Part shown: one piece after another, positions 38,480-61,962 of the stretch
Layout: every line of letters begins with the position of its first letter
How positions within the stretch are numbered: the stretch's first letter is position 1
Origin: a virus
DNA length: 64,000 nucleotides
Virus record (IMG/VR): IMGVR_UViG_3300042559_002030
Location: 41,444 to 105,443 of that record
Strand: one strand, 5' to 3'
Position numbers and translations under genes: made by a program
The notes under the pieces: model-generated
What the model was told of the DNA's origin: nothing
Database searches by the model: none
Seen by the model: only the letters and a program-made list of their open reading frames with translations

Positions 38480-39504
38480 GAAAATATAATGTTATAAAGA
38501 TCTGGATTGAATTCTTTTAACGAGGTGTTATGCAACTGATCGTGTTTTACAATTGTTTGTCTTAAATTGGTGAGATCCGTAATAGTTGACCTATTTTTAA
38601 CAGCAGCCCATGCCCGACTGTAAACTTCCCGATGTTGACCAATGTGTTCTTTCAGTGCCATTGGCAAGTTGTCAAGACTGTATGATCCAGATACGTAGTG
38701 ATCTATTAATTCAATAGGGTCACCAAATTTACTAGTCAGATGTTGCTGGTGCCATTTATCTAGTAGGTGCAAACGATTAATATTAAGTAATCCAATTGTA
38801 CGATTTATAGCAGGCATGACCGTATGTGGCATATCTTCTAAAAAAATCTTCCAGTTGGTTTCCCATTGGTTCCACCGCGATGGCCAACGTTGATATTCAT
38901 GTCCTGTACCGATATCATCTAAACTAAATCGAACCCTTACTAAAGCAAACTGTAGGAAAAAATCTATTAGTTTTGAATTTAGTTTGTGTGATCCGTTTGT
39001 ACTAAGTCGTAAAGTTATTTTAGAAAAATCACATCGGTCCGACAATTGTTCTATGTACTGTTTAACATTATTGTTTAAAAACGGCTCGCCACCTGAAAAA
39101 TTAATTTCTTGCACCTGTGATAGGTCAATTTTATTAAATTTAGTTTTAAAATCTGAAAAATTCATGTTAAAATTTGAATTGATTTTAACATTTTCAAGTT
39201 TTGCCCAGGTAGAGCTAGAATGAGATCCACAGATTTTACAAGCTAGATCACAATTTCTATTAGGATATACATCCACTACTATAGGCAACGAATGATTGTG
39301 TTCTAGCCCGTATATCTGATTGGCTCCTTGCCGATAGGAAAATATATTATTATTTTCCTGATCTATACAAGCACGGCAACCAACTGGGTCAACACTGTCA
39401 GATGTATATGTTGCGGGGTCTGTTTGATTGTAACAACATGTTCCAAATCTACTACCGTCATGACTAACCGTCAATCCGTGTTGTATTAACACACACCGAG
39501 TCAT
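38476..39504 (-). CDS. Twitch-type radical SAM enzyme (cassette gene C)
   Basis: 342 residues from the ATG at 39504, which overlaps the stop of the upstream gene (ATGA). The N-terminal Cys set (Cys4, Cys23/24, GCRACIDQE with Cys43, Cys46) is the auxiliary-cluster region of phage-type twitch proteins. The radical SAM core follows: NRNCDLACKICG (Cys85, Cys89, Cys92), SSSTW, FSGGEPF, LSTNGS and FSLDDIG. Twitch or SPASM radical SAM enzymes often modify peptides or proteins; the substrate here is unknown. Directly downstream of replication genes gp41 and gp61. Confidence 0.88.
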   Translation of the reverse strand: MTRCVLIQHGLTVSHDGSRFGTCCYNQTDPATYTSDSVDPVGCRACIDQENNNIFSYRQGANQIYGLEHNHSLPIVVDVYPNRNCDLACKICGSHSSSTWAKLENVKINSNFNMNFSDFKTKFNKIDLSQVQEINFSGGEPFLNNNVKQYIEQLSDRCDFSKITLRLSTNGSHKLNSKLIDFFLQFALVRVRFSLDDIGTGHEYQRWPSRWNQWETNWKIFLEDMPHTVMPAINRTIGLLNINRLHLLDKWHQQHLTSKFGDPIELIDHYVSGSYSLDNLPMALKEHIGQHREVYSRAWAAVKNRSTITDLTNLRQTIVKHDQLHNTSLKEFNPDLYNIIFS

Positions 39505-40052
39505 GGCGAGACCACCCACAGAGTTGGATTAACAATCTTTATGTCAAAACTAACTTGTTCTTTCACCAATGAGTCTAAAGTAAATTTCAAATGATTATGT
39601 TGAATAAAAATAGGATAAAAATTTATTACAGTAACAGATTTGACCCACACGTTTAAAAAATTTACAAATTGAGTTAAAGTTGCATATTTTAAAAACCAAG
39701 GAAATTTAAAAACTATCGTTTCATCTGTTGGAATGTAGGTTGGGCGATGCGTAAGAATATCAGGCTCAACATAGCACCCGGGAAAGTATTGTTTAGATAA
39801 CATATCACTTTCTAAACAAGTTGTGTTGATATCAAACTCTTGAAAATACCAGCCGGCGCAATCAACTGCTACCAGTTTATTATTTTTTAAATTGTCCAGA
39901 ATCCATCGATCAGTAAAATCAAGTTTATACGGAATTCCGTAACGAGTCGCACGCCATTTTTTAACAGCCGGGCGAGACAAATGATATAATCTGAATTGCT
40001 GAATCAGACGAATTGGTCCAAAGTCTGTGCTATAACCAGGTACTATTTGCAT
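39501..40052 (-). CDS. Unknown protein (cassette gene B)
   Basis: 183 residues, AT-rich. MQIVPGYSTDFGPIRLIQQF, RYGIPYKLDFTDRWILDNLKNNKLVAVDCAGWYFQEF, FPGCYVEPD, then a strand-rich half ending LWVVSP. The VAVDCAGWYF segment and alternating strands suggest an alpha/beta fold (glycosidic or Rossmann-like), but no motif is diagnostic. Coupled to the radical SAM gene by ATGA overlap, so it is a likely partner or substrate-handling protein. Confidence 0.75.
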   Translation of the reverse strand: MQIVPGYSTDFGPIRLIQQFRLYHLSRPAVKKWRATRYGIPYKLDFTDRWILDNLKNNKLVAVDCAGWYFQEFDINTTCLESDMLSKQYFPGCYVEPDILTHRPTYIPTDETIVFKFPWFLKYATLTQFVNFLNVWVKSVTVINFYPIFIQHNHLKFTLDSLVKEQVSFDIKIVNPTLWVVSP

Positions 40053-40537
40053 AATCCGTAACAGTCCATTGGATGTGCAGCGACCATATGATTCCCGTCG
40101 ACTTGATCAAAAGTGTGCAATCTTTTAAATTTATTATTGCAGTGATGCATAATAGTGTCTAAACTATCGTTAATCTCATTGAACAATGTAATATTTAAAT
40201 CATGCTGTACAACTTCATAACGATTGATTGCTACATAAGCATATTCGCATTCACTTGTTAATTGTTGTATGGTATTTACCAATGACTGTGTGGTTTGTTG
40301 TTCCAGTACTGGACCAAATATTATCACACCGTTGTACTTGTCGTTGTTGATCGTAATATGCTCTTGACATATTTTTTTAAATTTAGTGTCTGGTGCTGCC
40401 CACCGCCATACCACATCAGTGCATGTTTTTACAAAATTTAACATCACCGATTCTTGCTCTAATATTGTGCATGTGCCAGTGAGATTTTTAAATCCGTTTA
40501 ATTGCTGATCTCTCCAGAAATTATGGTCAATGGTCAT
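40043..40537 (-). CDS. Unknown protein (cassette gene A)
   Basis: 164 residues, AT-rich. MTIDHNFWRDQQLNGFKNL, VVWRWAAPDTKFKKICQEH, NGVIIFGPVLEQQTTQSLVNTIQ, and ending HPMDCYGLCK with two Cys. Overlaps gp41 (ATGA) and gene B (10 bases). The Rossmann-like IIFGPV strand and NTIQQL helix hint at an alpha/beta fold. The Cys pair at the C-terminus could be a ligand or a modification site. Unassigned. Confidence 0.75.
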   Translation of the reverse strand: MTIDHNFWRDQQLNGFKNLTGTCTILEQESVMLNFVKTCTDVVWRWAAPDTKFKKICQEHITINNDKYNGVIIFGPVLEQQTTQSLVNTIQQLTSECEYAYVAINRYEVVQHDLNITLFNEINDSLDTIMHHCNNKFKRLHTFDQVDGNHMVAAHPMDCYGLCK

Positions 40538-42974: not shown

Positions 42975-44087
42975 TTAACGGTATTTTATATTTTCCACAT
43001 ACCCAGTGGACACTATCACAGCAATTGACAGCATGGTGTAGGGATTTGGACGATATCCTGAGCCGCCTGACACCAAATTGATATCAGTCACAATGCCATT
43101 TTCTCCGATGGTGGATGTTGCAGTGGCGCCTGCACCATTGCCCACAAATGTAATCAGCGGTGGAGCTTGGTAGCCGAATCCAGGGTTGGTAATAGATACA
43201 CTGGTGACAACTCCGTCAGTTACCACAGCATTGGCTGTGGCTGCCACTCCAAAGTTTGTTCCGTTGATGCCAGTGGTGGTCACACTGTTGTTGAAACACA
43301 GGCGCAACAAGGGATGCCATCCAATCACTGTCATATGAATAGTTTCGGTTGCATTCAAGTACTGTGTAGACGGTGTCACATTGTACCAGATGCTTTGATA
43401 TGTTTCTGCTGCCTGTGCTTTGATAGTGCCGGTGTAGCCAATCAGGTCCATCTGTATGCTGGTCACTGGGCCCATGGGTTCAATCTGACTGCTGAAATAT
43501 TCAGTGCTCTGATACGGTGTGGTTGATCCGATGAATTGACCGGCCTGCAGGGCCCAATCTGGATATTGTGATCCACTGCTGCCACCATAACTGGTCTGCG
43601 CTGACAGATTAACAGTGGGAATTGTTAATTCAACACTGGGCACAAACTCTGGATATACGCTGTCTACAATGTCAACTGGTGCTCTAGCGCCAGCTTGAGC
43701 ATCAGTAAACACTGCTTCTGTTAGATTGCCACTGGCTCGCACAATACTGTAGCCTGCTGGCTGTGCCTGTACAACATCCAGATCAGCTGGAGTCAGTGTT
43801 ACTTTGGCACGACCATAAGCAGCATTGATAATGACCATGTCTTTTTGTGCCAGTACTTCTGCGCCGTTTTGACTGACAATTCTGAATGTCAGTGCGCTGC
43901 CGGTGATGTTTACAGGTTTTTCATCTTGATTGATGAATTCAAACAACACCACATTGTCAACACCTTTGTTAATTGTTAGTTTTTTAGCATACACAGGATC
44001 GTACCTCAGATTGAAATAAGCACCACTGGTGTCAGGAGTTAGAACTCTAATTACTTGCTGGTAAAGGTATACAGTGGTTGAATACAT
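42975..44087 (-). CDS. Virion structural protein (baseplate upper/BppU-like)
   Basis: 370 residues, beta-rich. N-terminal part NITGSALTFRIV...ILAQKDMV and VTLTPADLDVVQAQPAGYSIVRASGN is like the Ig-type domain of baseplate BppU proteins and cyanophage virion proteins. C-terminal Gly-rich repeats NPGFGYQAPPLITFVGNG and GGSGYRPNPY resemble beta-solenoid tail modules. Role in the baseplate or tail is likely from composition and neighbours. Confidence 0.78.
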   Translation of the reverse strand: MYSTTVYLYQQVIRVLTPDTSGAYFNLRYDPVYAKKLTINKGVDNVVLFEFINQDEKPVNITGSALTFRIVSQNGAEVLAQKDMVIINAAYGRAKVTLTPADLDVVQAQPAGYSIVRASGNLTEAVFTDAQAGARAPVDIVDSVYPEFVPSVELTIPTVNLSAQTSYGGSSGSQYPDWALQAGQFIGSTTPYQSTEYFSSQIEPMGPVTSIQMDLIGYTGTIKAQAAETYQSIWYNVTPSTQYLNATETIHMTVIGWHPLLRLCFNNSVTTTGINGTNFGVAATANAVVTDGVVTSVSITNPGFGYQAPPLITFVGNGAGATATSTIGENGIVTDINLVSGGSGYRPNPYTMLSIAVIVSTGYVENIKYR

Positions 44088-44164: not shown

Positions 44165-44542
44165 ATGGGCAACGATATCTTTACAAAACTAACTGAACAG
44201 TATCCGTTTATCACGCTGTGCGTGTATTCATCTACGGAATATGTGGGGATCGTTCAGAATCAAGATGCCGCAATCACTACCATATACGACTTTGGCAGCA
44301 TACACGATTCTGCAATGAAACAGAAGTTTTTGGAGTTGGCCAATATATGGTGGTGGGAAAGCAATCGCAGCATTCCCATCAACATTTTTCTGAAAAAAGA
44401 CTGGGAAATGTTCAAGCCTTGCCTGCGCACATTTGCCAACAAAGACCTAGAAATCTTGCACGGACCTGTGTGTAGTCTTGCAGACATTGCACTGAAGAAG
44501 GGCAAAAGAAAAAGTATTACTCTTGTGCGGCGGATGGAGTAA
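44165..44542 (+). CDS. Conserved hypothetical phage protein
   Basis: 125 residues from ATG at 44165. FITLCVYSSTEYVGIVQNQD, WWWESNRSIPINIFLKKDWEMFKPC and KKGKRKSITLVRR match an unassigned T4-like cyanophage family as far as I recall. TATAAATA (44152-44159) ends 5 bases before the ATG and no ribosome site is present. A short, in another frame, upstream ATG (44143) codes MLVYKYPDG, which I remember as the usual start of this family, so a frameshift is possible. Its 3' end overlaps the convergent DnaE-like gene by 26 bases. Confidence 0.72.
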   Translation: MGNDIFTKLTEQYPFITLCVYSSTEYVGIVQNQDAAITTIYDFGSIHDSAMKQKFLELANIWWWESNRSIPINIFLKKDWEMFKPCLRTFANKDLEILHGPVCSLADIALKKGKRKSITLVRRME

Positions 44543-47097: not shown

Positions 47098-48558
47098 TTA
47101 TTTCCACTCTAACTTTTCCTGTGAGAAGGGATAGTTGGCATCTCTGTAGAATACTTTTCGTTTGGTCAAGTGACGCTTGGCAAATTTACAAGTGCTGGTC
47201 ACATCCCAGATCTGGACGTGATCCTTGTCTTCTGCTTTTCTAATACCTCGCCCAATACTTTGTATAACGCGAACAAAGCTCTTTCCGGGCTCCACAAGAA
47301 CCAAATTAAAAATCCTAGGGATATTAATACCCACAGCGGCCACACCGTAAGTCGCCACAATAATCTTGCCAGTGCTTGTTGCAATTTCGTCATATTCTTC
47401 CTGCCTTTTAGTTCCTTTGGTGGCACCCGACACAAATACTGCTCGGTCTCCCAGTAGTTCAACCAGCGCATGGCCAGCTGCCACACGATCCACCAACACC
47501 AGAGTATTCCCAGTGTCATTTACTTGTGTTACCAATCCAGAAATGGCTGCAAGTCTATCAGGATCTTCTAATAAAAACTTCAACTCACTTTGATAGTTTG
47601 AAAATTCTGCATGATCGACCAGCTGCACAATGTTCACATGACACTGCGCCAACACACCACGATCCTGTAGTTCGCTGGCACTGAGTTGATTAATAACTGG
47701 ACCTAGACTACACTTCAGCGCTTGAAACTCAAATGGTTCTTTGGGCACAGTTCCAGTCAAGCCCCATCGAATTGGCACTCTAGACATGACTCCGGTCAGC
47801 AGAGTTTTGAGAGCGTCGGCCTTGGCCATGTGTACTTCGTCAACCATGACACACACCACATCTTCAATGAAGTCCTGTATGGTAATGTCTGCTACACCAG
47901 CTTTGGTATTCTTCATCAACACATTTAAACTTTGCCAAGTGCATATCGTGTGTGTGCGACCATGTTCTTTACGGTCGCCAAAGTACACACCCACATCCAG
48001 GCCTAAATTCACATAGTCTGCTTCAGTTTGTGTGACCAAACTTTTGTTGGGCACAATAACAATGCTACGACCATACGGCTCAATGCTCAAACTCAGCGCT
48101 GCTGTCATCAGTGTTTTGCCTGCTCCTGTGGCCACTTCTTGGATGCATTGCGGATTGCCCAAGAAAGCATTGATGATCTCAACCTGGTAGTCGCGCAGAA
48201 CAACTGGTTGTCCTGCTATCGGATGTGTTTTAGGCCATGTTTTGTGAGCAAACGAATCTTCTTTGATATGATCAAAATCAAATGTGGTTGAGTATGTGCG
48301 CTGATCGTCCAGTTCAATGTCATAGTTGAACTTTTCCAGTATGGGCACAATGTCCGGCAATAAATTTACATAGGTACTACCGCCCAATTGAAAGTAACTG
48401 ACCTTGCCATCCCATCTGCCCAGGCGCACTGCGGGCAAATATCTGGCACCAGGCACATCATATTTAAAAGCCGTGACCAACGCACGACGAACGTCGGCGT
48501 CTAGGCCTTCAATCTTGATATTGACTTCGTCTCGAATTATGATTGTGGCTGTTTTCAT
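47098..48558 (-). CDS. uvsW: UvsW-like SF2 helicase
   Basis: 486 residues (T4 UvsW 503 residues). Motifs: N-terminal Q-type region, Walker A ATGAGKT, DEAH-box-like MVDEVHMAK, motif III GLTGT, and motif VI QSIGRGIRK; an RNA or DNA-strand-exchange helicase that unwinds R-loops, branches and stalled forks, and turns off origin R-loop replication late in T4. Promoter at 48566-48594 sits in the end of the previous gene. Confidence 0.95.
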   Translation of the reverse strand: MKTATIIIRDEVNIKIEGLDADVRRALVTAFKYDVPGARYLPAVRLGRWDGKVSYFQLGGSTYVNLLPDIVPILEKFNYDIELDDQRTYSTTFDFDHIKEDSFAHKTWPKTHPIAGQPVVLRDYQVEIINAFLGNPQCIQEVATGAGKTLMTAALSLSIEPYGRSIVIVPNKSLVTQTEADYVNLGLDVGVYFGDRKEHGRTHTICTWQSLNVLMKNTKAGVADITIQDFIEDVVCVMVDEVHMAKADALKTLLTGVMSRVPIRWGLTGTVPKEPFEFQALKCSLGPVINQLSASELQDRGVLAQCHVNIVQLVDHAEFSNYQSELKFLLEDPDRLAAISGLVTQVNDTGNTLVLVDRVAAGHALVELLGDRAVFVSGATKGTKRQEEYDEIATSTGKIIVATYGVAAVGINIPRIFNLVLVEPGKSFVRVIQSIGRGIRKAEDKDHVQIWDVTSTCKFAKRHLTKRKVFYRDANYPFSQEKLEWK

Positions 48559-48559
48559 G

Positions 48560-49246
48560 TTAGTTATTATACAATTTTTTATAGGAATTCACAACCATGT
48601 CTTGAAAACTGTTATCAAAGGATTGGTGTACAATTATGTGCCAGCGCGGCTGGTCACTGTTGTTTATCACTGCATGCTGATTTGAAATATCTAACCATAA
48701 CGCTTGCCCGGGAAAAAAAGGCACTGTTCCGTGTTTGGCCATTACAAACTGGCACTCGGTGGGCTGTGTAATTGCAATGTTGATTGCTGTCAATTTGGAT
48801 ATTGCGTAATCTTGATGAATGCTTATATATCCGCCGGGTTCAAGCAACATAACTCGAATTCTTTTAAATTGACCTCCGGGCCACTTAGTGGCAAAATAAT
48901 CCACAGTCAATGGCATACATTGTTGTGCTTCACTTGTCCATACATACGGTCGATTGTCATTGTAATAACTTTCTTCACGAGTAGCATCGTAACTCTTTCC
49001 GTGTATGCAAAAACTTTTCCAGCCGCGATGTTCTCCATAATTGTCCCGATGGTCTACCAACAACAATTCAATATTTTTGATTTCGTGCAGAATATCCTGA
49101 TACGGCACTGCAATGTCTAACTGCAACCATGGCAACCCAGAAGCGTTCATTATCCACTCAAAATCAGCAGAGGGATTGTACTCCGGCAACTGCAAATTGC
49201 AGTTGGCATATTTTTTAAACATCAACTGGCTTATTTCGTATTTCAT
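48560..49246 (-). CDS. 2-oxoglutarate Fe(II) oxygenase (Asp/Asn beta-hydroxylase type)
   Basis: 228 residues, AT-rich. The iron ligands are visible as His144-x-Asp146 (GGYISIHQDYAI) and His191 (NQHAVINNSD), with Arg201 for 2-oxoglutarate, and this order fits the aspartyl/asparaginyl hydroxylase family. It would hydroxylate a protein or small molecule with O2 and 2-oxoglutarate. Third gene of the overlapping cassette 51184-48560, and overlaps the 49215 gene by 32 bases. Substrate unknown. Confidence 0.78.
   Translation of the reverse strand: MKYEISQLMFKKYANCNLQLPEYNPSADFEWIMNASGLPWLQLDIAVPYQDILHEIKNIELLLVDHRDNYGEHRGWKSFCIHGKSYDATREESYYNDNRPYVWTSEAQQCMPLTVDYFATKWPGGQFKRIRVMLLEPGGYISIHQDYAISKLTAINIAITQPTECQFVMAKHGTVPFFPGQALWLDISNQHAVINNSDQPRWHIIVHQSFDNSFQDMVVNSYKKLYNN
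48566..48594 (-). promoter_or_regulatory. Sigma70 promoter of uvsW, inside the oxygenase gene
   Basis: TTGTGA, 17-base spacer, TATAAT on the minus strand; lies within the last codons of the 2OG-oxygenase gene and 8 bases before the uvsW ATG. Confidence 0.65.
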
Positions 49247-50384
49247 TGATTTTTAATTGAAAATTATTGTATTTCTCAACTGTGGTATGTAACAGTGTCC
49301 ATTTGTAGTTTAATATATTTGAACACCATATATTGTCATAGTCACTTATATTGTTTTCTAGCACCCAGTCAATTAGATTATCATTGCAAAACTCAACAAC
49401 TTTTGTTTTTTGCGCATGTTGCCAGTGACTGCTAAAATTCTCTTTCACTTGTTTTGTAAATCTGCTGTTGACATATTCAACAAACATTGATTGCTTTTTT
49501 AACTGCAATCTTTCCAATGGAGTGAGATTTGGATTATCTACTTCGTAGTGCTTTAAGTTATTTTGTGTTATAAAGTTCCAAACAAAATTTCCATAGTCTG
49601 TTCCGTCCCAAGTGGTCCAAAGTTTCTGACAAAAATCAATTTGTACACGGCTTATGTCAACTATTTGGATATGTTGCGTGGCAGCATTGATAATATTTAA
49701 GATCCAGTATAGGCCGGATCCAGGTGATACCAATTGTTTTTGTTTGATTTCGGTGATAGGTTCGTTGTTAAAAATCCATAACTGATTTTCGGCTATGTTT
49801 TTATAATCCTGGAACTGGGTCAGATCAATGGTGCCGTCATACAAAAAGAATTTTAAATCTCTAGCAGCATTGTTCCAGTTCACAACAGCTCGGTTACTTT
49901 GTAATTGTTTTGCTATGAGCCCTTGTCCAAATGCTGTAACAGTGTATTCTGCCACAGCCACGCCAGGTTTAATCCATAAAGGTGTATAATTGTCATGCAA
50001 ATTTTGATCGCTGCGCACAGGCACTGAATGAGACACTGTGCTAATTGAAAAATCCTCTGCATCAAATTTACCCAGATCCATAAACCAACATTGATCATCT
50101 AAACATACCGGCTGTCCTGGATGCCAAATCACATGTGCAATCAGTCCATAATGTGGATATGTATCAACTAATTTTTTCCACTGCTGCCAATCTATGAACA
50201 TGGTTCCGCTTTTGACGAACAGCGCAGACTTGTGCCCGTGCTGCTTGGCCCACAATACACCATCTGCCCAATTGTTACAAATAAAAACTTCTTGCCGGGT
50301 GGATTCCCCGTGTTTACCAAATTGTATGCCACTCAAAGTTTGATTTCTAAGTGGTCCGTCTAGAATGATCACTGGCCAAGCCAT
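49215..50384 (-). CDS. Unknown protein of the oxygenase cassette
   Basis: 389 residues, AT-rich, Trp-rich: MAWPVIILDGPLRNQTL, SALFVKSGTMFIDWQQW, LIAHVIWHPGQPVCLDDQCWFMDL, and a helical C-terminal third. The first 120 residues have alternating strands and helices and could be a Rossmann or glycosyltransferase-like fold; no DxD. Overlaps 48560 (32 bases) and 50384 (1 base), so tightly coupled. Not recognised. Confidence 0.72.
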   Translation of the reverse strand: MAWPVIILDGPLRNQTLSGIQFGKHGESTRQEVFICNNWADGVLWAKQHGHKSALFVKSGTMFIDWQQWKKLVDTYPHYGLIAHVIWHPGQPVCLDDQCWFMDLGKFDAEDFSISTVSHSVPVRSDQNLHDNYTPLWIKPGVAVAEYTVTAFGQGLIAKQLQSNRAVVNWNNAARDLKFFLYDGTIDLTQFQDYKNIAENQLWIFNNEPITEIKQKQLVSPGSGLYWILNIINAATQHIQIVDISRVQIDFCQKLWTTWDGTDYGNFVWNFITQNNLKHYEVDNPNLTPLERLQLKKQSMFVEYVNSRFTKQVKENFSSHWQHAQKTKVVEFCNDNLIDWVLENNISDYDNIWCSNILNYKWTLLHTTVEKYNNFQLKINEIRNKPVDV

Positions 50385-51184
50385 TATAAAGTAACCCTGA
50401 CAGGCACAGCATTATTTTTTAATTGTTCTTTTAACAAATCAAGTTGAGTTGTTTTTCCAAACACACTGACGCCGAATATGTTCTCGATGTTCCAGCTGGG
50501 TATATTCCAATGCTGTGTCCACTCATGTTGATAATGTTTCCACCAAGAAGAGAATTCATCGCATTGTTTGTTTTTTAATCGGTCCATGTCCTCAAGTGCC
50601 ACATATATCTTTGGTCTAAGTTTCAGCCAGGGCTTGGCCAATTCACACATTCTTTTTATGTCATTGGGCTCGTTGTTTATCCAATATGCGTACGGTGTCT
50701 TGCCCAACTCTGACCACTGCACATATATATCACCGGCTTGAATTGTTGTTTGAGTATTGATTAACCATTTTTGATCAATTGGTTTTTCTAGTAACCCAGA
50801 TTTTTCGCGATAGTCTATACAAAATACACCATTGGTTTTTTTGAAATACATTTCACACATGTGAATATGTTCGTGAAAATCTAACCAATCAGAATTACCA
50901 TTGTAATTTTTTTCATAGATTTTATGTATACTGTTAAAATACATCTGATCCTGAGCCAAACATTTTGAGCGATCAATAGGAACCGATACTCCATGTGCAT
51001 ACTTTATCAACTGCTCGACCAAATCTGTATAGGTTAAATTTTTTGTATAGTAAGGATTGTCCCAGGGCCTAAACGGTATTGATATCTTACTCAAATGTTT
51101 GTATATTTTTTGATAGGTCGTGGCCAATGGGCTATCATCTATAGACAGATCTATAACGCAATTGTTTGAAAAAATCAATTTCAT
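50384..51184 (-). CDS. Unknown protein of the oxygenase cassette
   Basis: 266 residues, AT-rich, aromatic. MKLIFSNNCVIDLSIDDSPLATTYQKIYKHLS, then PFRPWDNPYYTKNLT, DWLDFHEHIHMCEMYF, DIYVQWSELGKTPYAYW and FGVSVFGKTTQLDLLKEQLK. The HEHIHMC stretch could bind metal. First gene of the cassette, driven by a sigma70 promoter at 51191-51219. No family known to me. Confidence 0.72.
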   Translation of the reverse strand: MKLIFSNNCVIDLSIDDSPLATTYQKIYKHLSKISIPFRPWDNPYYTKNLTYTDLVEQLIKYAHGVSVPIDRSKCLAQDQMYFNSIHKIYEKNYNGNSDWLDFHEHIHMCEMYFKKTNGVFCIDYREKSGLLEKPIDQKWLINTQTTIQAGDIYVQWSELGKTPYAYWINNEPNDIKRMCELAKPWLKLRPKIYVALEDMDRLKNKQCDEFSSWWKHYQHEWTQHWNIPSWNIENIFGVSVFGKTTQLDLLKEQLKNNAVPVRVTL

Positions 51185-51190
51185 GTCAGT

Positions 51191-51219
51191 AGTATATACT
51201 TATTGCAGTAAGAAGTCAA
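51191..51219 (-). promoter_or_regulatory. Sigma70 promoter butted onto a terminator
   Basis: TTGACT, 17-base spacer, TATACT on the minus strand; the -35 shares bases with the T-run of the terminator at 51217-51249. It drives the oxygenase cassette. Confidence 0.72.
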
Positions 51220-51249
51220 AAAAACAGGTACCTTTTTTAAGGGTACCTG
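51217..51249 (-). terminator. Strong Rho-independent terminator
   Basis: CAGGTACC pairs with GGTACCTG (8 bp) around a 9-base loop, followed by seven T on the minus strand. Ends the transcript of the small early genes at 51.3-52.9 kb. Confidence 0.83.
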
Positions 51250-51850: not shown

Positions 51851-52873
51851 TTATGCCGCCTTCATGCAAGTTGTTTCTGCCAGACGCTTCCAGTTCAGCA
51901 TGCTCATCTTGCGCAGGTCTGCAATTTTGATTGCCATGCGCAGACTCATTTCACGCAGACGATTCTGATTGGCGTCCATGAACGCAATGATCTCGTCTTG
52001 AACTTCGGGTTCAAAATCGTAGTCTGCAAACAACACGCCATCTTTGGCAATTTGTTTGATACGCAGAATCTTGTCACGCATGGTGTCCAAAGTCAGATCC
52101 AGGTAGTGGCAACGACTTTGCAGTGCATCCAAGTGATCCCGCAGTTTCTGCGATTTCATCTTGTCAAACTTCAAGTTGGTGATAAAGATGGCACTGCCTT
52201 TGAATTCAAAACTGTCTGGGATGCCTTCGCGGCGCAGGCTGCTGCTTTCTGACAACCAGCTAATCTTGCGCTTCTTGCCTGAGTCTAATGCACCCTTCAG
52301 CAGGTTCAAGCTCACGTCATCCAACAGGATACTGTCGCAGTCGTCAAACACAACCACGCAATTGGCGTCTGAATACTTGTACAGAGTCTGGTACAGGCCA
52401 ATGGGTGTAGCAGCACCTTTCACAACTTCTGCTCGCAGTCGCTTGCCTGCCAGTTTGTCAAACATGGTGGCTTTTTCAATCTCTTGCTCCACACCAAAGC
52501 TCTTGCCCACACCCGGAGGACCCGATACAATCATGGCGCGGATGTCGCCTGTCACTGTGGCTTTGGTCATTTCGTGCAGGATGTCAAAACGCTCACGGAT
52601 ACGATCCATGGCCTGTTCTTCTGTTTCTGCTGGTGCAGCCACTGCCTTGGCAGCGTTGGTGGTTGTGTCTGTCATGCCGTTAGTATACTCAATATCAGAA
52701 ATGTTGTCAACACGGATACGGATCGTATCTGGGCAATTGGGAAAATTGCCGTCATTTTTAACAGTCACAAAGTTGCCTTTGGCGCCGGTCTGAAAGCCCG
52801 ACACAAGACTAAACACTTGGTCAGCTACGGGACGCTTACGATACTCTCCGCGAACGATACGAATTGCACTCAT
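51851..52873 (-). CDS. AAA+ ATPase
   Basis: 340 residues. Walker A GPPGVGKS (about 118-125), Walker B VVFDDCDS, sensor I TN (IFITNLKF), and a C-terminal helical lid with arginine region. N-terminal domain beta-rich (MSAIRIVRGEYRKRPVADQVFSL). Not gp44 (clamp loader) in pattern; a remodeller of unknown target found in pelagiphages and cyanophages. Ribosome site AAAGGAGCC decides the start; early promoter 52909-52937 upstream. Confidence 0.9.
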   Translation of the reverse strand: MSAIRIVRGEYRKRPVADQVFSLVSGFQTGAKGNFVTVKNDGNFPNCPDTIRIRVDNISDIEYTNGMTDTTTNAAKAVAAPAETEEQAMDRIRERFDILHEMTKATVTGDIRAMIVSGPPGVGKSFGVEQEIEKATMFDKLAGKRLRAEVVKGAATPIGLYQTLYKYSDANCVVVFDDCDSILLDDVSLNLLKGALDSGKKRKISWLSESSSLRREGIPDSFEFKGSAIFITNLKFDKMKSQKLRDHLDALQSRCHYLDLTLDTMRDKILRIKQIAKDGVLFADYDFEPEVQDEIIAFMDANQNRLREMSLRMAIKIADLRKMSMLNWKRLAETTCMKAA

Positions 52874-53891: not shown

Positions 53892-53899
53892 TATTTATC
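53892..53899 (-). promoter_or_regulatory. Late promoter box GATAAATA
   Basis: GATAAATA on the minus strand, 20 bases before the ATG at 53871; overlaps the stop of the glycosyltransferase gene upstream. Confidence 0.55.
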
Positions 53900-54629
53900 A
53901 CTGCCAGTGTGATATCACTGTGGCATCTGTTATTTCATGCGGTTTAGGTTGGCCATGAAATACCAATATACTGGTATCAGTGGTTAAGGTTGTTCCTGTA
54001 CCAGGTGTGCGGTGCTTTTTACGAGCAAAGTCAAATCCACCGTCGACACATTCCCATTTCCAGCTTTTTACCCATTCAGAATGAAAAAATCGACGATGTG
54101 CCGTGGGTATTACATCTGACACAAAATCCTGATCTCCGCGGTATTTACGAACAAAGAAGTCTATGTCCTGATCTACCACTGTGTTCCACACATGCTGGTA
54201 TTGTGCAGTGTCCCACCACATCACACTGGTATTTGATCCGGTCCAGTTGTGCTTCCACAGATATTTGAAGTCCCGTATTGACCAAAAATGTCGCAAATTC
54301 AATTGCCAGATCCAGTCTATGTTGTTGGCAATGACCACATCTAAATCAAAATACAACATGGGGCCTGAATGATGCTGGGTGTTGAACAACTGTAGTTTAT
54401 ACCACCAACTTTTTTTGGGCCCAGCAAATCCCCAATCTTCTAAACAGTGCTTGACCATGTGATCCGGAACTGGTCTTGTTGCTTCGGTATAAACATGTAG
54501 TCGGACTGGGCGGGTCAAATGTCTGCATAACATGCTGTACAGTCGATCCACATAGGTCCAGTCGTATCCGTTGCTGTGTATAACACAAGCACAGTCCAGT
54601 GGCTGTGTGTTGGCGATCAGTGAGGTCAT
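53898..54629 (-). CDS. Glycosyltransferase (GT8-like fold, DxD)
   Basis: 243 residues. PVRLHVYTEATRPVP, PMLYFDLDVVIANNID (DxD-type motif for nucleotide-sugar and metal), NTSVMWWDT and GDQDFVSDVIP. Transfers a sugar from a nucleotide donor; acceptor unknown. Related to the 58719 protein in the same island (both have LYxDLDxVI...NID). Late-type box CATAAATA 4 bases before the ATG. Confidence 0.82.
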   Translation of the reverse strand: MTSLIANTQPLDCACVIHSNGYDWTYVDRLYSMLCRHLTRPVRLHVYTEATRPVPDHMVKHCLEDWGFAGPKKSWWYKLQLFNTQHHSGPMLYFDLDVVIANNIDWIWQLNLRHFWSIRDFKYLWKHNWTGSNTSVMWWDTAQYQHVWNTVVDQDIDFFVRKYRGDQDFVSDVIPTAHRRFFHSEWVKSWKWECVDGGFDFARKKHRTPGTGTTLTTDTSILVFHGQPKPHEITDATVISHWQ

Positions 54630-54633
54630 TCTA

Positions 54634-54661
54634 TATTTATGTGCGTATATAACGATAAATA
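54634..54661. promoter_or_regulatory. Two divergent late boxes with no leader
   Basis: CATAAATA (54641-54634, minus) lies 4 bases from the ATG at 54629; GATAAATA (54654-54661, plus) lies 5 bases from the ATG at 54667. Neither gene has a Shine-Dalgarno sequence. Confidence 0.5.
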
Positions 54662-54666
54662 TCTTT

Positions 54667-55431
54667 ATGAAAATAGTATTAGTAACCGGTGGATTTGATC
54701 CTGTGCATTCGGGACATATTGCCTACTTTAAAGCTGCAAAAACTCTAGGCGACATGTTGATTGTTGGCCTCAATAGCGATGAGTGGCTGGTTCGTAAAAA
54801 AGGTGCAGCCTTTATGCCCTGGAACGAACGACTCTGCATTGTTAATAATTTATCAATGGTTGACGAAGTTTATACCTTTGACGACAATGACGGATCAGCA
54901 AAACATTTTATTCAACAAGCAAGAGCACATTACCCCGATGCCGAACTGATATTTGCCAATGGCGGGGACAGAACCCGAGATAACATTCCAGAAATGGATG
55001 TGATAGATGCTAATTTATCATTTGTGTTTGGCATAGGCGGTGAAGATAAAAAGAATTCTAGCAGTTGGATATTGCAAGAATGGAAAGCACCCCGGACCGA
55101 ACGAGCCTGGGGATACTATCGTGTGCTGCACGAAGTGGGTGCCAACACCAAGCTCAAAGAGCTCACTGTGATGCCTCAGACCTGTTTAAGCATGCAACGC
55201 CATGATCTACGACAGGAGTTTTGGTTTGTGGCCGAAGGCACAGCCACAGTGTACACACTGGAAGACTCCAGCACAGACCGTGACGTCAAGTGCCAGCTTG
55301 ATGTGCATGAACACACTTTTATTGAATGTCGTGAATGGCATCAGCTGTGTAACGAAACTGATAAACCGCTGAAACTGATTGAGATCCAGTACGGCAGTGA
55401 CTGTGTCGAAGAAGATATTGAGAGAAAATAA
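54667..55431 (+). CDS. Cytidylyltransferase-cupin fusion
   Basis: 254 residues. N-terminal nucleotidyltransferase with TGGFDPVHSGH (His14-x-Gly-His17 of the CTP-transfer family) and the later ANGGDRTRDN and SSSWIL segments, similar to HldE C-domain, glycerol-3-phosphate and ADP-heptose-type enzymes. Residues about 155-254 form a cupin (WFVAEGTATVYTLED, CREWHQLCNETDKPLKLIEIQYG) like mannose-6-phosphate isomerase type II tails. A nucleotide-activated sugar or polyol is the likely product. Starts the plus-strand glycan operon. Confidence 0.85.
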   Translation: MKIVLVTGGFDPVHSGHIAYFKAAKTLGDMLIVGLNSDEWLVRKKGAAFMPWNERLCIVNNLSMVDEVYTFDDNDGSAKHFIQQARAHYPDAELIFANGGDRTRDNIPEMDVIDANLSFVFGIGGEDKKNSSSWILQEWKAPRTERAWGYYRVLHEVGANTKLKELTVMPQTCLSMQRHDLRQEFWFVAEGTATVYTLEDSSTDRDVKCQLDVHEHTFIECREWHQLCNETDKPLKLIEIQYGSDCVEEDIERK

Positions 55432-55432
55432 T

Positions 55433-56224
55433 TTGTTTTTTAAAAATGTTCTTTTTGATTCAATTCCAAAGAGTGACAATTTAGTTGTTTTTTCTTGCGA
55501 CGATAATTATTTTAAAAAATACGGAATATATAATATTTTATCGTGTAACGACACCAATCAACCAGTGCATGTACACTTAATTAATCCATCACTGGATTCA
55601 GTGTTGACTTTAAAAGCAATAATAGATAAATTACAGATTCCGCTATCGTGGTCTACTGAGTACTTTGAAACGTCAAATTTAAATTTTTATCTATTAAAAA
55701 GTTATTATTACATGGCTAGATTTTATCTTTCTAATTATATATTTCAACACACTTCTGTAACTTGCATTAAAATCGTCGATGCTGATATTATCTTTAATTC
55801 TTTAATTAGCTTTCCTGAATCAGTTAATATAGGAATAACTTATAAAAAACAAAAAAACACCGCTTGGGAAAGAACTGCTGCTTATTTTTTATTTTTAACA
55901 TCATCATATAAAAATTTTCTTCCAAAAGTCATTGATCTATACGAAGAAAAAATAAAAAATATAGATTTTTTAAAAGTTGAAAAAATAGAAAACAAAATAG
56001 AAAAAGCTAATTTTACAGGACTTGATCAGGTGTGCTTAACTGAAATTTTAGAAAACGAATGCATTTATCAAAATCAAGATTTTTTAAATTTAGGATCTCT
56101 ACAATCATTTTCTAGCAAAGGCCCTGATGCAAAAATTTGGGTATTGGTCGGTAAAACTAAAAAATTGTTACCAGACGACTATCTACCAGTTAAATACAAA
56201 AAATACTTTGAAAACATACAATGA
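55433..56224 (+). CDS. AT-rich putative glycosyltransferase
   Basis: 263 residues if it starts at the TTG at 55433, just after the previous stop; the open frame continues upstream inside the cytidylyltransferase gene. The DNA is far more AT-rich than its neighbours (about 28 percent GC in the line 55441-55500). VVFSCDDNYFKKYGIYNI, VHLINPS and CIKIVDADIIFNSL (DxD) suggest a GT8-like glycosyltransferase; TWERTAAYFLF-type C-terminal part. Likely a recent import. ATGA overlap with the next gene. Confidence 0.7.
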   Translation: MFFKNVLFDSIPKSDNLVVFSCDDNYFKKYGIYNILSCNDTNQPVHVHLINPSLDSVLTLKAIIDKLQIPLSWSTEYFETSNLNFYLLKSYYYMARFYLSNYIFQHTSVTCIKIVDADIIFNSLISFPESVNIGITYKKQKNTAWERTAAYFLFLTSSYKNFLPKVIDLYEEKIKNIDFLKVEKIENKIEKANFTGLDQVCLTEILENECIYQNQDFLNLGSLQSFSSKGPDAKIWVLVGKTKKLLPDDYLPVKYKKYFENIQ

Positions 56225-56919
56225 AACCAATACCAATTTTTGTCGGATACGATCCCAGAGAAGCAATAGCTTACCACACCTGTGTTAACTCAATCATTAG
56301 GCATGCAAGCAAGCCTGTAGCAATTATTCCACTGGCCCTTAACTTGTTTACCGACTACACAGAAACGCACACTGATGGTAGCAATCAGTTTATCTACAGT
56401 CGCTTTCTTGTGCCGCACTTGATGGAGTACACTGGCCATGCTATCTTTATAGATGGTGATATGATTGTGCGCAGCGACATTGCGGAACTCTGGGCTCTAC
56501 GCAATCCTGGCCTGGATGTGCAAGTGGTCAAGCATGACTACAAAACTCGTATGCCTGTAAAATATCTAGGAGCAAAGAATGAAGACTATCCTCGTAAAAA
56601 TTGGAGTAGTGTTATACTGTGGAATTGTAATAGCTTTCCTAACCGGGCTCTTACTCCCAAGTTCGTCCAGCGTGCCACTGGTAGCGAGCTCCACCGCTTC
56701 TCGTGGATAGACGATGATCGCATTGGCGAATTGCCCAAAGAATGGAATTGGTTAGACGTTGAATACGACGCAAACCCCAATGCAAAACTGGTACATTATA
56801 CCTTGGGCACGCCGTGTTTTCACGAGTTTGCCGATAAAGGCAGCTTTGCCAATGAATGGCACCAAGAAAGAATTCATACAGAATATTGCCAACAACACTT
56901 ATCAAATGACCAAACTTAA
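56221..56919 (+). CDS. Glycosyltransferase family 8-like
   Basis: 232 residues. IFVGYDPREAIAYHTCVNSI, SRFLVPHLM, AIFIDGDMIVRSDIAEL (DxD), then WNWLDVEYD and KLVHYTLGTPCF (His near the acidic end), in the order of GT8 enzymes such as glycogenin and LPS galactosyltransferases. Probably adds hexose in surface glycan or modified virion glycan. Overlaps both neighbours. Confidence 0.87.
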   Translation: MKPIPIFVGYDPREAIAYHTCVNSIIRHASKPVAIIPLALNLFTDYTETHTDGSNQFIYSRFLVPHLMEYTGHAIFIDGDMIVRSDIAELWALRNPGLDVQVVKHDYKTRMPVKYLGAKNEDYPRKNWSSVILWNCNSFPNRALTPKFVQRATGSELHRFSWIDDDRIGELPKEWNWLDVEYDANPNAKLVHYTLGTPCFHEFADKGSFANEWHQERIHTEYCQQHLSNDQT

Positions 56920-57817
56920 ATTTACAGTAGTACATCGTGCCGACCGCAACAATGTAGGCGACCTTGCCAGTAATCCGTTGCAGTATTTCCTCGAACCAGA
57001 AGAGTATCAAGTAGTTGATATTACTAATATAAAAAATACTGCATACGATCCTACACTGCCGATGGTTGTAGGTGGGGGTGGCTTGATTGCTAACGAGTTT
57101 TTTAATGATGCCATTGAATCGGTATTGCCGTCAGCTGATTTATATCAATTAATTCAAATACAAAAACATAAATGGGATCTGAGAGATCCGGCAAATAAAA
57201 AATCACATAAGGAATTTATGTTTGCCCATAGAGAGTTTATTAAAAAATATATGATGCAACTTGCGCCTGCACAGGCCAAACGATACATATGGGGTGCAGG
57301 GCATAACGGTCCGTTGGATAAACGTGGCGATGCGGCAGTTGAATATCCAGATTGGCTCATGAAGTTTGACGAAGTTGGTATCCGCGACTGGAATCAAAAT
57401 CAGCCATGGGTGCCGTGTGCCAGTTGTATGCACCCGGCATTTGATGAAAAATATGCAATTAAAAATGATGTTATATTTTTTGAACATAAAAAACAGTTGA
57501 TTAAAAACTTCGGCAATGACAGTATACCGCGGTTTGTGAATTCTGGAAGCAACATAGATCAGTCTATTGAACTCCTGGGCAGTGCTAACATAATTTTAAC
57601 CAATAGTTATCATGGCGCTTATTGGGGTGCGCTGTTGGGTAAGAAAGTTATTGTAGTCGACGCATGGAGTAGTAAATTTTTAAATATGAAACATGTTCCG
57701 TATATGTTAAAGCGCGATGGTGACTGGAAAGATGTAGTTGATGATGTTATAATAAGTGACCATGCTCTAGAAGAATGTCGGCTTGCTACTACGGAATTTT
57801 GGGAAAAGATTAAATGA
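56906..57817 (+). CDS. Polysaccharide pyruvyltransferase family protein
   Basis: 303 residues from the ATG at 56906 (overlap of 14 bases with the GT8 gene). Family pattern: NNVGDLASNPLQYF, VVGGGGLI, WGAGHNG, GIRDW, SCMHP, then SNIDQSIELLGSANIILTNSYHGAYWGALLGKKVIVVD. Family members add pyruvate ketals to polysaccharides such as exopolysaccharide or cell-wall glycan; related GT-B-like forms exist. A phage copy is unusual. ATGA overlap with the next gene. Confidence 0.85.
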   Translation: MTKLKFTVVHRADRNNVGDLASNPLQYFLEPEEYQVVDITNIKNTAYDPTLPMVVGGGGLIANEFFNDAIESVLPSADLYQLIQIQKHKWDLRDPANKKSHKEFMFAHREFIKKYMMQLAPAQAKRYIWGAGHNGPLDKRGDAAVEYPDWLMKFDEVGIRDWNQNQPWVPCASCMHPAFDEKYAIKNDVIFFEHKKQLIKNFGNDSIPRFVNSGSNIDQSIELLGSANIILTNSYHGAYWGALLGKKVIVVDAWSSKFLNMKHVPYMLKRDGDWKDVVDDVIISDHALEECRLATTEFWEKIK

Positions 57818-58722
57818 AATTAATAGCATATCTATCAACTATTCCGCCGAGTAAAAAAAGTCAGCATAAATTTGAATTGTTAACAAGATTTGTCAGTGGA
57901 GTAAACGCATACGGAGACACTGGCGTAGTTAGTTCATCCCCAGTTCTGAGCAACTGCGAAGTAGCATTTATACAAGGATGGCCGCATGCCACCGGAAAAC
58001 AAGGTACCCACAATCTATTTAGATCAGCAGTACACGAATATCAGAAAAAAAATAACAATAGATTACTTGTAGTAGATAGCAACTTGTTTAACTATCGTGG
58101 CAAAAATGAGTATTCTAGATACAGTTTCGACGGAGTTTTCCCGAACACAGGGACATATTTCTGGGATAATCCAGATCCTGCTCGCTGGCAGTCTATAAGT
58201 CGCAACACTGGCATTGGGTTGAAGGATTGGCGACAAAATGGCAAACATATATTGGTGTGCTTGCAGCGCAACGGCGGTTGGAGCATGGGCACATACGACA
58301 TAGTTGATTGGGCTACAAAAACCATTGCCAAACTGCAACAAGCAACAGATCGCCCTATTGTACTGCGACCGCATCCAGGAGACAAAGCCGCAAGACAACA
58401 CATCGGTAGCGTTGATCATTTTCGTAATGTATCATTGTCTCGGCCTGATTCTACACTAATAGACGATCTCCGAAACTGTTGGGCTGTGGTAAATCACAAT
58501 TCCAGTCCCACTGTAGGATCTGTAATAGAAGGATATCCAATTTTTGTCACTGATCCAGATCGTAGTCAAGCTGCTGCTGTGGCCAACACAGATCTAAGAT
58601 TGATAGAAAATCCCGCTATGCCAGATAGACAAGCATGGATAGAACGCATTGCCATGTGCCATTGGAATCACACAGAAGTCGTGTCAGGCGCAGCCTGGCA
58701 ACACATTAAAAAATATATCTAA
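57814..58722 (+). CDS. Capsule-polysaccharide-type glycosyltransferase
   Basis: 302 residues. GT-B-like C-terminal half with RPIVLRPHPGDKA, WAVVNHNSSPTVGSVIEGYPIFVTD, as in KpsC/KpsS/LpsB-type capsule polysaccharide transferases. Paralogue of 61963-62805: both end PDRxAWxExxA...W. Convergent with 58719 (overlap of 4 bases). Probably builds part of a surface or virion glycan. Confidence 0.75.
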   Translation: MKLIAYLSTIPPSKKSQHKFELLTRFVSGVNAYGDTGVVSSSPVLSNCEVAFIQGWPHATGKQGTHNLFRSAVHEYQKKNNNRLLVVDSNLFNYRGKNEYSRYSFDGVFPNTGTYFWDNPDPARWQSISRNTGIGLKDWRQNGKHILVCLQRNGGWSMGTYDIVDWATKTIAKLQQATDRPIVLRPHPGDKAARQHIGSVDHFRNVSLSRPDSTLIDDLRNCWAVVNHNSSPTVGSVIEGYPIFVTDPDRSQAAAVANTDLRLIENPAMPDRQAWIERIAMCHWNHTEVVSGAAWQHIKKYI

Positions 58723-59357
58723 ATCCAGTGTTGCGCCACCAATGGATGATGCAGCATAGTGCTGGGTTTTTGATTATTTTTTCTAAAATGTAATATTTTA
58801 ACCAATTCAAGATTGTCTAACTGTCGTTTATGTGCAATCTGCATCCACTCAGTAGGTAAGAAATCAGTGAATAATTCATGGTCAACATGCTGGCTTATCA
58901 GTGCTTGATCACCGTACAGCGGCACCTGGCCATACAAAGATTTCCAGTGGTCCAATGGACGAGATTGATATATTTCCCATAAGTGACTGTGGTCACCTTG
59001 CCACCACATCATGGCACTTGAGTGAATGTGTTTGTCTGCTTCATACCACATTACAAAAGTTTTGGATTGGCAAGCTGAAACAATTTCATCTATGTTTGAA
59101 CAAATTACAGTGTCAAGATCCAGATACAGCACAGGTTCAGAAAACACCCCAGGCTTGAACAACTGTAGTTTTGCCCAAAATCCTGTACCAGTTGCATCCA
59201 ACGGGATTCGGTCAACTGCAACTTCACAGTCACTCAGACACACAAAGCGGTGGGGCACTGTTAAGTTTCTTGCCACTGCTCTCTGCAGTTTGGCAACCCA
59301 TTCTGCATCATAATTTACTTTGCCGCCGTGTCGCAGTACGCATACAACATTAATCAC
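58719..59357 (-). CDS. Glycosyltransferase with DxD, GT8-like
   Basis: 212 residues from GTG at 59357, which overlaps the stop of the methyltransferase gene; the ORF can be extended upstream but that would run deep into it. RFVCLSDCEV, PVLYLDLDTVICSNIDEI (DxD), SSAMMWWQGDHSHLW, YGDQALISQH. Similar to the 53898 protein; they look like duplicates. Donor and acceptor unknown. Confidence 0.8.
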   Translation of the reverse strand: MINVVCVLRHGGKVNYDAEWVAKLQRAVARNLTVPHRFVCLSDCEVAVDRIPLDATGTGFWAKLQLFKPGVFSEPVLYLDLDTVICSNIDEIVSACQSKTFVMWYEADKHIHSSAMMWWQGDHSHLWEIYQSRPLDHWKSLYGQVPLYGDQALISQHVDHELFTDFLPTEWMQIAHKRQLDNLELVKILHFRKNNQKPSTMLHHPLVAQHWI

Positions 59358-59892
59358 AATATTTCTCAAGCACCAGTAATCCAGATCCACGATTGCAATG
59401 TTCAACTATGTGCCATTGGTGATTTTCCGACAAAAAATCACAGGCCGCCTGAAACACACCAGGCCAATCAGTGGTATCATGAAAAATAATATATCGTTTA
59501 ACTTTGTTACTGTGTCGGGCCAGTTCAGCAGCAGTGTGCTTTTTTTTATGCACAGTATCAATAAACAACAGGTCAGTTGGTTCTATGTCTACGGCTAGAC
59601 TATCACCTATGATGAATTCAAAATCAATTTGATGTTGTGTTGCATGTTGGTTAAGTCTGTCCAACACTGTGAGATTTTCATCAGTGATGTCATAGCTACG
59701 CAATTTTTTTGGATTGCCAGCCAAGAATGCAGCAGTACTCAATCCAGTGTACACTCCAAACTCTACAATGCTGTCAACTTTGGCCGCGTATTTTGTGTAT
59801 GTGTCAAATCGGCTAGGACTGTCGCCTAACCAATCAGTTGGAGTTATTTTTAAAGATAAAAAATCATCTCGTAGTTGTGTTATAGTTTTCAT
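59350..59892 (-). CDS. Class I SAM methyltransferase
   Basis: 180 residues. SIVEFGVYTGLSTAAFL (motif I), SYDITDEN, IDFEFIIGDS, DLLFIDTVHKKKHTAAEL (motif IV-V) match Methyltransf_24-type enzymes found in glycan or cephalosporin-type clusters. Likely methylates a sugar or amino sugar in the island. ATGA overlap with 59889 gene. Confidence 0.82.
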   Translation of the reverse strand: MKTITQLRDDFLSLKITPTDWLGDSPSRFDTYTKYAAKVDSIVEFGVYTGLSTAAFLAGNPKKLRSYDITDENLTVLDRLNQHATQHQIDFEFIIGDSLAVDIEPTDLLFIDTVHKKKHTAAELARHSNKVKRYIIFHDTTDWPGVFQAACDFLSENHQWHIVEHCNRGSGLLVLEKYCD

Positions 59893-60434
59893 TTTTTCAT
59901 CCAGTATACACCTAATTTACTTTTTCTACTTTTAAGGTAATGATGTTTTATATAATGGGACCAGGTGTCCATCACTTCTGCATGGCTCCAGTCATCCTTT
60001 ACATGCGCCTCGTAAGGGTTGTCGTATGCATGTTCGTCTTGCGGCATGTGTACAATTGGAATGCTCGCAATCAACACATCCGAAACTGACAAAATTTTAT
60101 CTACCAATGTCATTGCCTGTTCTTTTGTGATATGTTCCAGTACATCTCCGGCAATTACAACACTAACAGGTCCCAGAGCTTCCCAATTTACTTCACGCAC
60201 ATCTTGATTAATAATTTGATCGTATCGCTGTTCTAGATTGTATTTTTTTATGTATGGCTCCCATACTTCTATACCAATCCAATAAGCAGAGTTGCAGCAG
60301 TTGTGTTGTTCTTTAATGAGATTGACGTAGGTACCAGACCCGGGTCCAATGTCAACAATTTTTGTAATTTTTTCATGGTGTTCTTGAAACCACGCAAGCG
60401 TTTCTGATTTACCTGTTTTTAAACTGTATGACAT
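59889..60434 (-). CDS. Class I SAM methyltransferase
   Basis: 181 residues. KIVDIGPGSGTYVNLI (motif I), YWIGIEVWEPYIKKY (acidic motif II region), VVIAGDVLEHITKEQ (motif IV). A small methyltransferase of the type in polysaccharide clusters; could act on sugar, lipid carrier or protein. Coupled to its neighbour by ATGA. Confidence 0.82.
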   Translation of the reverse strand: MSYSLKTGKSETLAWFQEHHEKITKIVDIGPGSGTYVNLIKEQHNCCNSAYWIGIEVWEPYIKKYNLEQRYDQIINQDVREVNWEALGPVSVVIAGDVLEHITKEQAMTLVDKILSVSDVLIASIPIVHMPQDEHAYDNPYEAHVKDDWSHAEVMDTWSHYIKHHYLKSRKSKLGVYWMKK

Positions 60435-60437
60435 TGA

Positions 60438-61118
60438 TTAATTTTCCTTATCCCAAATTTTAGTTTTAATGAGGCTGGATCTACCGTGTGTTCTTTCTCT
60501 ATCCTGTGCCTGTCCCATCATGTAATTATGTATTTGAATTTTTACTATGTATTGATTTATTGCGTTGTCTGCCGGCAGGAATGATTGATGATAAAAATCT
60601 ACAAGTTTCTGTGCAGCATGTGGTTTTATTGCATAGCCGGCGGCGCCGGGAAGGCTGCTGCGTTGATAGTATTCAGCTGTGGGATCACCTGTAGGAGATT
60701 CTAAATAATGCTTGTATTTTTCCATTTTCTTAGTATGACTACTAGCCAGAATCAAAACATCAGTCCATTCAACCGGGTAGTACGGGCGAATTACATGAGC
60801 ATCGTCTTCCCATATTACAATGGGTTGATCAGAGTTTGCACAAAGTTTCCATAGTCTGTAATGACTATCAAAACATCCGACTATGCCCGGAGTTGTGCGG
60901 TCTTGCTTGCACTGATCCAAAAACGGTACATCGGGTCCTTTAAACCCCCAAGGATGGCACTGTCGATTATTTTTTTGATATTGTATCAGTGCTTGATCTC
61001 CGTAAGAGCCTTCAAACAATTCGGCTTCTATTTTAAAATTAGACAGTTCTTTTTGTAAACGAAGGCCACTATTCAAACTTGCAGGAATATTACTTAAACA
61101 AATGATGTAGCTTTTCAT
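60438..61118 (-). CDS. Glycosyltransferase family 25 (LPS-type)
   Basis: 226 residues from the ATG at 61118 (ATGA overlap). YIICLSNIPASLN, GIVGCFDSHYRLWKLCANSDQPIVIWEDDA, YPVEWTDVLIL and PGAAGYAIKPHAAQKLVDF are the GT25 pattern (e.g., LPS and collagen galactosyltransferases): retaining enzymes with EDD-type acidic motif. Fits addition of galactose or glucose to a surface glycan. Confidence 0.87.
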   Translation of the reverse strand: MKSYIICLSNIPASLNSGLRLQKELSNFKIEAELFEGSYGDQALIQYQKNNRQCHPWGFKGPDVPFLDQCKQDRTTPGIVGCFDSHYRLWKLCANSDQPIVIWEDDAHVIRPYYPVEWTDVLILASSHTKKMEKYKHYLESPTGDPTAEYYQRSSLPGAAGYAIKPHAAQKLVDFYHQSFLPADNAINQYIVKIQIHNYMMGQAQDRERTHGRSSLIKTKIWDKEN

Positions 61119-61921: not shown

Positions 61922-61962
61922 TGTTTTCCTTATAACTAAGTGTATATTTAACCGGGTATATT

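Follow-up and report, generated by a model that had tools for sequence, protein, structure and literature searches.

Each part of the locus described here, a trio of genes that we call A, B and C, has a relative among known systems. The PF05118 family of oxygenases, with its LpxO-like and proline cis-4-hydroxylase relatives, corresponds to C, and human AspH, which has no acidic iron ligand, offers a further comparison. A GT-A domain combined with a 2OG oxygenase occurs in LH3 (PLOD3), COLGALT1 and their mimivirus analogues, and likewise, adjacent or fused, in the B-C pair. The cyclophilin PPIases have a barrel in common with A. Among phages, a cyanophage cluster of carbamoyltransferase, 2OG oxygenase and sugar enzymes (PMC7824862) and the radical-SAM cassettes of pelagimyophages (PMC7029224) have, in the accessible portions of those papers, the same enzyme classes that surround distant B-C pairs and A', a second copy type of A. 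The same portions contain neither an A-family protein nor a B-C pair. In the open-licence literature, no paper was found that joins phage, cyclophilin-like and radical SAM, or that joins radical SAM, carbamoyltransferase and phage genomes. Each fold is known, as is the family of C; the B-C pair, its coupling to A, and an A family with a His/Glu insert and radical-SAM partners were not found described.

The window, by which we mean the whole 64,000-nt stretch of viral DNA analysed, encodes A, B and C on the minus strand as three tightly overlapping ORFs, at the coordinates that an earlier note on this DNA had claimed (Table 1). The A/B overlap is 1 nt and the B/C overlap is 32 nt; uvsW, named in that note as the neighbour, begins 1 nt past C. 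Since A, B, C and uvsW abut, there is no separate precursor-peptide gene of the RiPP type in the operon at this locus, nor do the short gaps beside A in relatives (given below) leave a place for one; a precursor encoded at a distance is conceivable. The three are real genes, because their sequences are conserved across many relatives, with identities of 37–76% for A, 38–66% for B and 49–70% for C. All three proteins are Trp-rich, including A and B, for which this had been claimed (4.1% and 4.6% Trp). Their GC content is low, as had also been said (0.353 for A, 0.374 for B and 0.402 for C versus 0.437 for the whole window), but it does not mark a shared origin with the radical-SAM cassette at 37760–40537. 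That idea was ruled out because AT-richness belongs to the A, B and C families: their median GC in relatives is 0.37–0.39 versus 0.45 for uvsW, and A is equally AT-rich in loci without B-C. Elsewhere in the window, positions 53898–63540 form a glycan-type gene block with several glycosyltransferases, a cytidylyltransferase fused to a mannose-6-phosphate-isomerase-like cupin, a polysaccharide pyruvyl transferase and methyltransferases.

Table 1. Genes and upstream elements at the A-B-C locus, in window coordinates.
Feature	Position	Strand	Remarks
uvsW helicase	47098..48558	-	phrog_16 E 3.7e-72; Pfam UvsW_N; next gene, same tightly packed operon
Gene C	48560..49246	-	228 aa; predicted PF05118-type Fe(II)/2OG oxygenase
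Gene B	49215..50384	-	389 aa; predicted GT-A-like N-terminal domain and C-terminal alpha/beta domain
Gene A	50384..51184	-	266 aa; predicted cyclophilin-like barrel with helical insert
TTGACT-N17-TATACT, claimed early promoter	51191..51219	-	not clearly above chance, not generally conserved
T4-late-type element TAAGTA	51197..51202	-	upstream of A
Terminator-like hairpin	51218..51249	-	CAGGTACC-9 nt-GGTACCTG and T run; seen directly, the 9-nt loop being outside scanner limits
AAA ATPase	51851..52873	-	phrog_1250; other flank of the A(-B-C) site; syntenic in relatives

C is a predicted Fe(II)/2OG oxygenase of the PF05118 type, in agreement with its earlier description as an Asp/Asn-hydroxylase-type oxygenase. 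It matches PF05118 with an E of 2.6e-9 and 37.6 bits against a curated cut-off of 22.6. The iron and 2OG residues are kept: the triad H144-x-D146...H191 and R201 are invariant in 20 divergent relatives. Profile matches in the PDB are to a beta-hydroxylase (7v4f, E 2e-7) and an L-proline cis-4-hydroxylase (4p7w, E 4e-6), and the HxD...H ligands of C line up with those of both. C thus differs from human AspH in having the full triad, and from the described members of PF05118 in forming a separate subfamily whose constant partner is B. PF05118 includes protein hydroxylases, and C might accordingly be imagined to act in host takeover or in the maturation of virions by hydroxylating Asp, Asn, Arg or Pro residues of a protein of the host or the virion, with B as the recognition subunit. 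The late element described below would suit action at the virion stage. However, the nearest solved relatives are the beta-hydroxylase and the L-proline cis-4-hydroxylase, the latter by its name an enzyme of the free amino acid, and we regard this reading as improbable.

Structure prediction, which the earlier note had proposed for A and B, gave confident AlphaFold2 models of both (pLDDT 91 and 91.5, respectively). In the model of B, residues ~1–183 have a GT-A fold (VIA best Z 10.1), matching many GT-A entries, among them the PBCV-1 glycosyltransferase, LH3 and COLGALT1. The DxD motif is absent from this domain, and relatives have x-G-T (or x-G-x) at the strand end. The window protein matches nothing in Pfam or PHROGs, so profiles place it in no known GT family. 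Glycosyl transfer by B is still conceivable, because metal-independent GT-A enzymes exist. The C-terminal domain (~190–384) is alpha/beta in the model, with an SG-x2-W motif and an invariant D243 that fit a Rossmann pattern by eye and by strand order. This suggests a nucleotide- or SAM-binding Rossmann fold, possibly methyltransferase-like, and no methyltransferase family rose in a profile comparison with the methyltransferases in hand. The likeness of B-C to LH3/PLOD is a functional analogy only and does not make B-C a member: the 2OG family is a different one, the DxD is lacking, and there is no collagen evidence.

A 2OG oxygenase and a GT-fold protein adjoining a DNA helicase could also be read as a DNA hypermodification system, in which a base would be oxidised by C and glycosylated by B. 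We consider this very improbable, since C is of the PF05118 type rather than the TET/JBP type, the GT fold has no DxD, expression appears to be late-type, and half of the otherwise similar phages lack the pair.

The model of A can be assigned with confidence to a cyclophilin-like fold. The best comparison to a cyclophilin (VIA) has a Z of 11.3 over 130 residues with an rmsd of 3.1, and nearly all of the 50 structural matches listed for A are cyclophilins, with Z of 10.3–11.3. A has no Pfam match to any family at E<=1, cyclophilins included. A PHROGs search with A and B gave a marginal match for A only, and a PDB sequence-profile search with both gave nothing relevant. Besides having no Pfam match, A differs from the cyclophilin PPIases by a helical insert of ~100 residues, bearing N-x2-H-x3-E...H-x2-E, and by a conserved E-L-G-K. 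In the window protein, the family motif reads N84-x2-H87-x3-E91 ... H108-x2-E111 ... E159-L-G-K162, and in the A alignment the patterns N-x2-H-x3-E, H-x2-E and E-(L/I)-G-K are the part that never varies. The string HEHIHMC, to which attention had been drawn previously, is present as residues 104–110 of A; only its last His is invariant, together with the Glu just past the string. The His/Glu motif on the helical insert may form a metal site.

The three genes had been credited with an early promoter of their own at 51191–51219. This is doubtful. Matches of the type TTGACT-N17-TATACT number 27 in 8 kb versus 17.7 +/- 4.3 in shuffles, and by eye the sigma-70-like hexamer pair recurs in a few close relatives only. 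What is conserved instead is a T4-type late element. A TATAAATA-like sequence lies just upstream of the A start, and of 66 distinct upstream regions, 52 have TAA[AG]TA at 8–30 nt from the start codon of A, where the background is 1.3%. Most relatives keep the hairpin, followed by TAA[AG]TA, as a rule 4 nt ahead of the ATG. An early promoter was therefore rejected as the main reading, and the sigma-70-like hexamers may provide additional early transcription. In the window, TAA[AG]TA precedes 12 of 71 ORFs versus a 1% background, and in the same contig it also stands before one gene for the baseplate wedge and one for a structural part of the virion; it was not found directly before gp23, and a search of five contigs for the phage sheath family PF04984 gave no match. 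In T4, UvsW is produced from a late promoter (PMC3016281). From the conservation of the element, its position before virion genes and the T4 precedent, we infer that A-B-C-uvsW is a late, nearly leaderless operon. The distribution of the element also suggests that late promoters with leaderless mRNAs are common in this phage. Several other genes have TAA[AG]TA 4–6 nt before the start codon, for example those at 9700–11448, 42975–44087, 44165–44542 and 53898–54629.

Viral contigs were searched for relatives of A, and B and C were scored in 60 non-redundant loci holding both A and uvsW. B and C are both present in 30 of these, neither is present in the other 30, and one alone is never found. Of the filled loci, one (L008/L009) has kept B with C reduced to a remnant by an internal deletion; the B of L107 and of L109 has no GT domain. 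L132 was scored among the empty loci, its B-C being on the opposite side of A. The gap between A and uvsW is 28–168 nt in 29 of the 30 empty loci and ~1.8 kb in most of the filled ones; on the other flank, the spacing from the AAA gene to A is ~100 nt in several loci. The description of the three genes as one cassette is thus right in that B and C always go together and A is in every locus of the clade that has them, but A cannot be counted in the mobile part, as it is retained in the 30 loci without B-C. In this T4-like clade A thus belongs to the core genes, and it must have a function of its own, because half of the loci keep it without the pair.

On a uvsW tree built from 59 loci, the pair switches between present and absent at least 17 times (shuffled mean 20.1), and on the A tree it does so 16 times. 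Since it switches this often, the pair moves as a unit. The site of A is a place of active exchange, as can be seen by comparing the window phage to L078: their uvsW proteins are 97% identical, their A proteins are only 53% identical, and they differ in B-C. Other inserts at the A site include a radical SAM gene in L086 and three unrelated genes in L087. Because the A locus turns over so quickly, B-C may track A by recombination and not by function. On that account A would merely lie in an exchange hot spot, between the hairpin and late element on one side and uvsW on the other, and B-C would be an independent accessory pair. The high turnover of A itself, the other inserts and the many changes of B-C state all fit it. 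A molybdopterin oxidoreductase gene (679 aa) is found at the same hot spot in a phage contig, adjoining B-C-A (L132:2043–4082).

The contexts in which B-C is found elsewhere weigh against such a coincidence of neighbours. In a second phage group (L295–L301), A has different flanks, with no uvsW and no AAA gene. Of the 7 loci of this group, 2 encode a fused B-C (563 and 421 aa) immediately after A, and 5 have no B-C. In L132 and L302 the gene order is B-C-A, placing the pair on the opposite side of A. A viral protein of 768 aa in BFVD, A0A6J5T9P3, matches both the A model and the B model, which suggests an A-B fusion. With these observations, we think it unlikely that a shared recombination site explains the association.

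Fused B-C proteins are also encoded in L033, L142 and L182. They occur in contigs of Bdellovibrionia MAGs too, and radical-SAM genes are numerous in one of these. Marine loci have the order C-B and lack A. Among 43 marine loci fetched through C, which include the A-linked fusion of L142, the two are adjacent in 42, and the exception is at a contig end. In L027 and L028, C-B adjoins a DegT aminotransferase and radical-SAM genes. When the distant B-C clusters were compared by hhalign for unrecognised homologues of A, none was found. Since B and C are paired or fused with and without A across these contexts, they are an old functional pair, which became attached to A in two phage groups. A and the B-C pair occur widely among uncultured phages of aquatic origin; tblastn found no match for A, B or C in 50,697 annotated phage records, and none in isolated phages for these or for the marine B and C. 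The Bdellovibrionia MAG contigs L177 (1–16498) and L178 have seven radical-SAM genes, several B-like genes and two C-like genes in 16 kb.

We lean, tentatively and with somewhat less than even confidence, to the reading that B-C acts jointly with A as an optional module for oxidative tailoring. It rests on the co-inheritance of B and C, their docking beside A in unrelated contexts, their fusions and the A-B-like protein, together with the triad of C, the predicted folds, the late element and the radical-SAM neighbours of the A family. A would be a late-expressed core protein presenting a conserved His/Glu site on the helical hairpin inserted into its cyclophilin-like barrel. C would hydroxylate either A itself or a target that A binds, carries or makes. 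B would then recognise or further modify the hydroxylated site, using a GT-A-shaped domain without DxD and a possible SAM-binding alpha/beta domain.

The main alternative is surface-glycan decoration. Here B-C would decorate a surface or capsular glycan, or a nucleotide-sugar precursor, leading to superinfection exclusion; C would hydroxylate a sugar, lipid or aminoacyl substituent, and A would be only a neighbour or a scaffold. Marine C-B pairs do cluster with NDP-sugar epimerase, GT2, GT4 and methyltransferase-like genes, and the DegT aminotransferase of L027 can be viewed in the same way. In the window, genes for PS_pyruv_trans, MannoseP_isomer/cytidylyltransferase and GT25 are 2–11 kb away, and the accessible portions of reports on pelagimyophage (PMC7029224) and jumbo phage (PMC7824862) propose such roles for similar genes. 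However, the B-C of the freshwater clade tracks A and not glycan genes, and the missing DxD again counts against a sugar-transferring B. We judge glycan decoration to be possible but rather unlikely.

Returning to a tailoring module acting with A, a role of A in modification is supported by the partnership of its family with radical-SAM genes. A' is a protein of 367 aa in a 340-kb contig (IMGVR_UViG_3300042473_001265) that shares identical A, B and C with the window. A radical-SAM gene is immediately or closely upstream of A' in all 80 of 80 loci, with further radical-SAM genes nearby, and a carbamoyltransferase follows A' in 71 of the 80. A' has Q in place of the E of the E-(L/I)-G-K motif. 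The match of A to A' by profile is weak (E 1.2e-4, probability 55), and a syntenic bridge protein from L292 is matched by the A model (3.6e-8) as well as by the A' model (6.1e-10), which we take as good evidence that the two are one family. The isolated phage Atu_ph07 has an A-like protein (sequence E 0.045, Foldseek probability 1.0) that also sits among radical-SAM genes; a search of viral contigs with it found nothing beyond itself.

The tie to radical SAM thus holds for the A family as a partner of such genes. It was not borne out for the 37760–40537 cassette, for which the earlier note had proposed a test of co-occurrence. In 16 long contigs, which may be incomplete, no specific link was found: the 239-aa protein of that cassette is present in 1 of the 16, and radical SAM homologues occur both with and without B-C. 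A bolder proposal is that A-family proteins, cyclophilin-like barrels with a His/Glu metal site, form a new class among phage proteins and serve radical-SAM and 2OG modification enzymes as their obligate partner or substrate. B-C would then be a plug-in hydroxylation module for them, in a phage-encoded, exchangeable protein-modification system with no earlier description. We hold this to be doubtful. The case for novelty would be stronger if the modified protein turned out to be A. The data also tie together two puzzles of these genomes, the many radical-SAM genes and the conserved proteins of unknown function. With its three defined proteins, the locus can be used to ask how oxidative modification late in infection benefits a phage, and the close relatives with and without B-C provide a clean comparative design.

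In the 340-kb contig, a region at ~134–144 kb (L192:1966–12188) holds a conserved cluster of four radical-SAM/SPASM genes, A', the carbamoyltransferase and, in this phage, a protein that by eye is amidinotransferase-like. This appears to be a phage cluster for biosynthesis or modification that has no earlier description. The window itself encodes, at 28200–29828 and separate from the 37760–40537 cassette, a B12-binding radical-SAM protein (PF02310 and PF04055).
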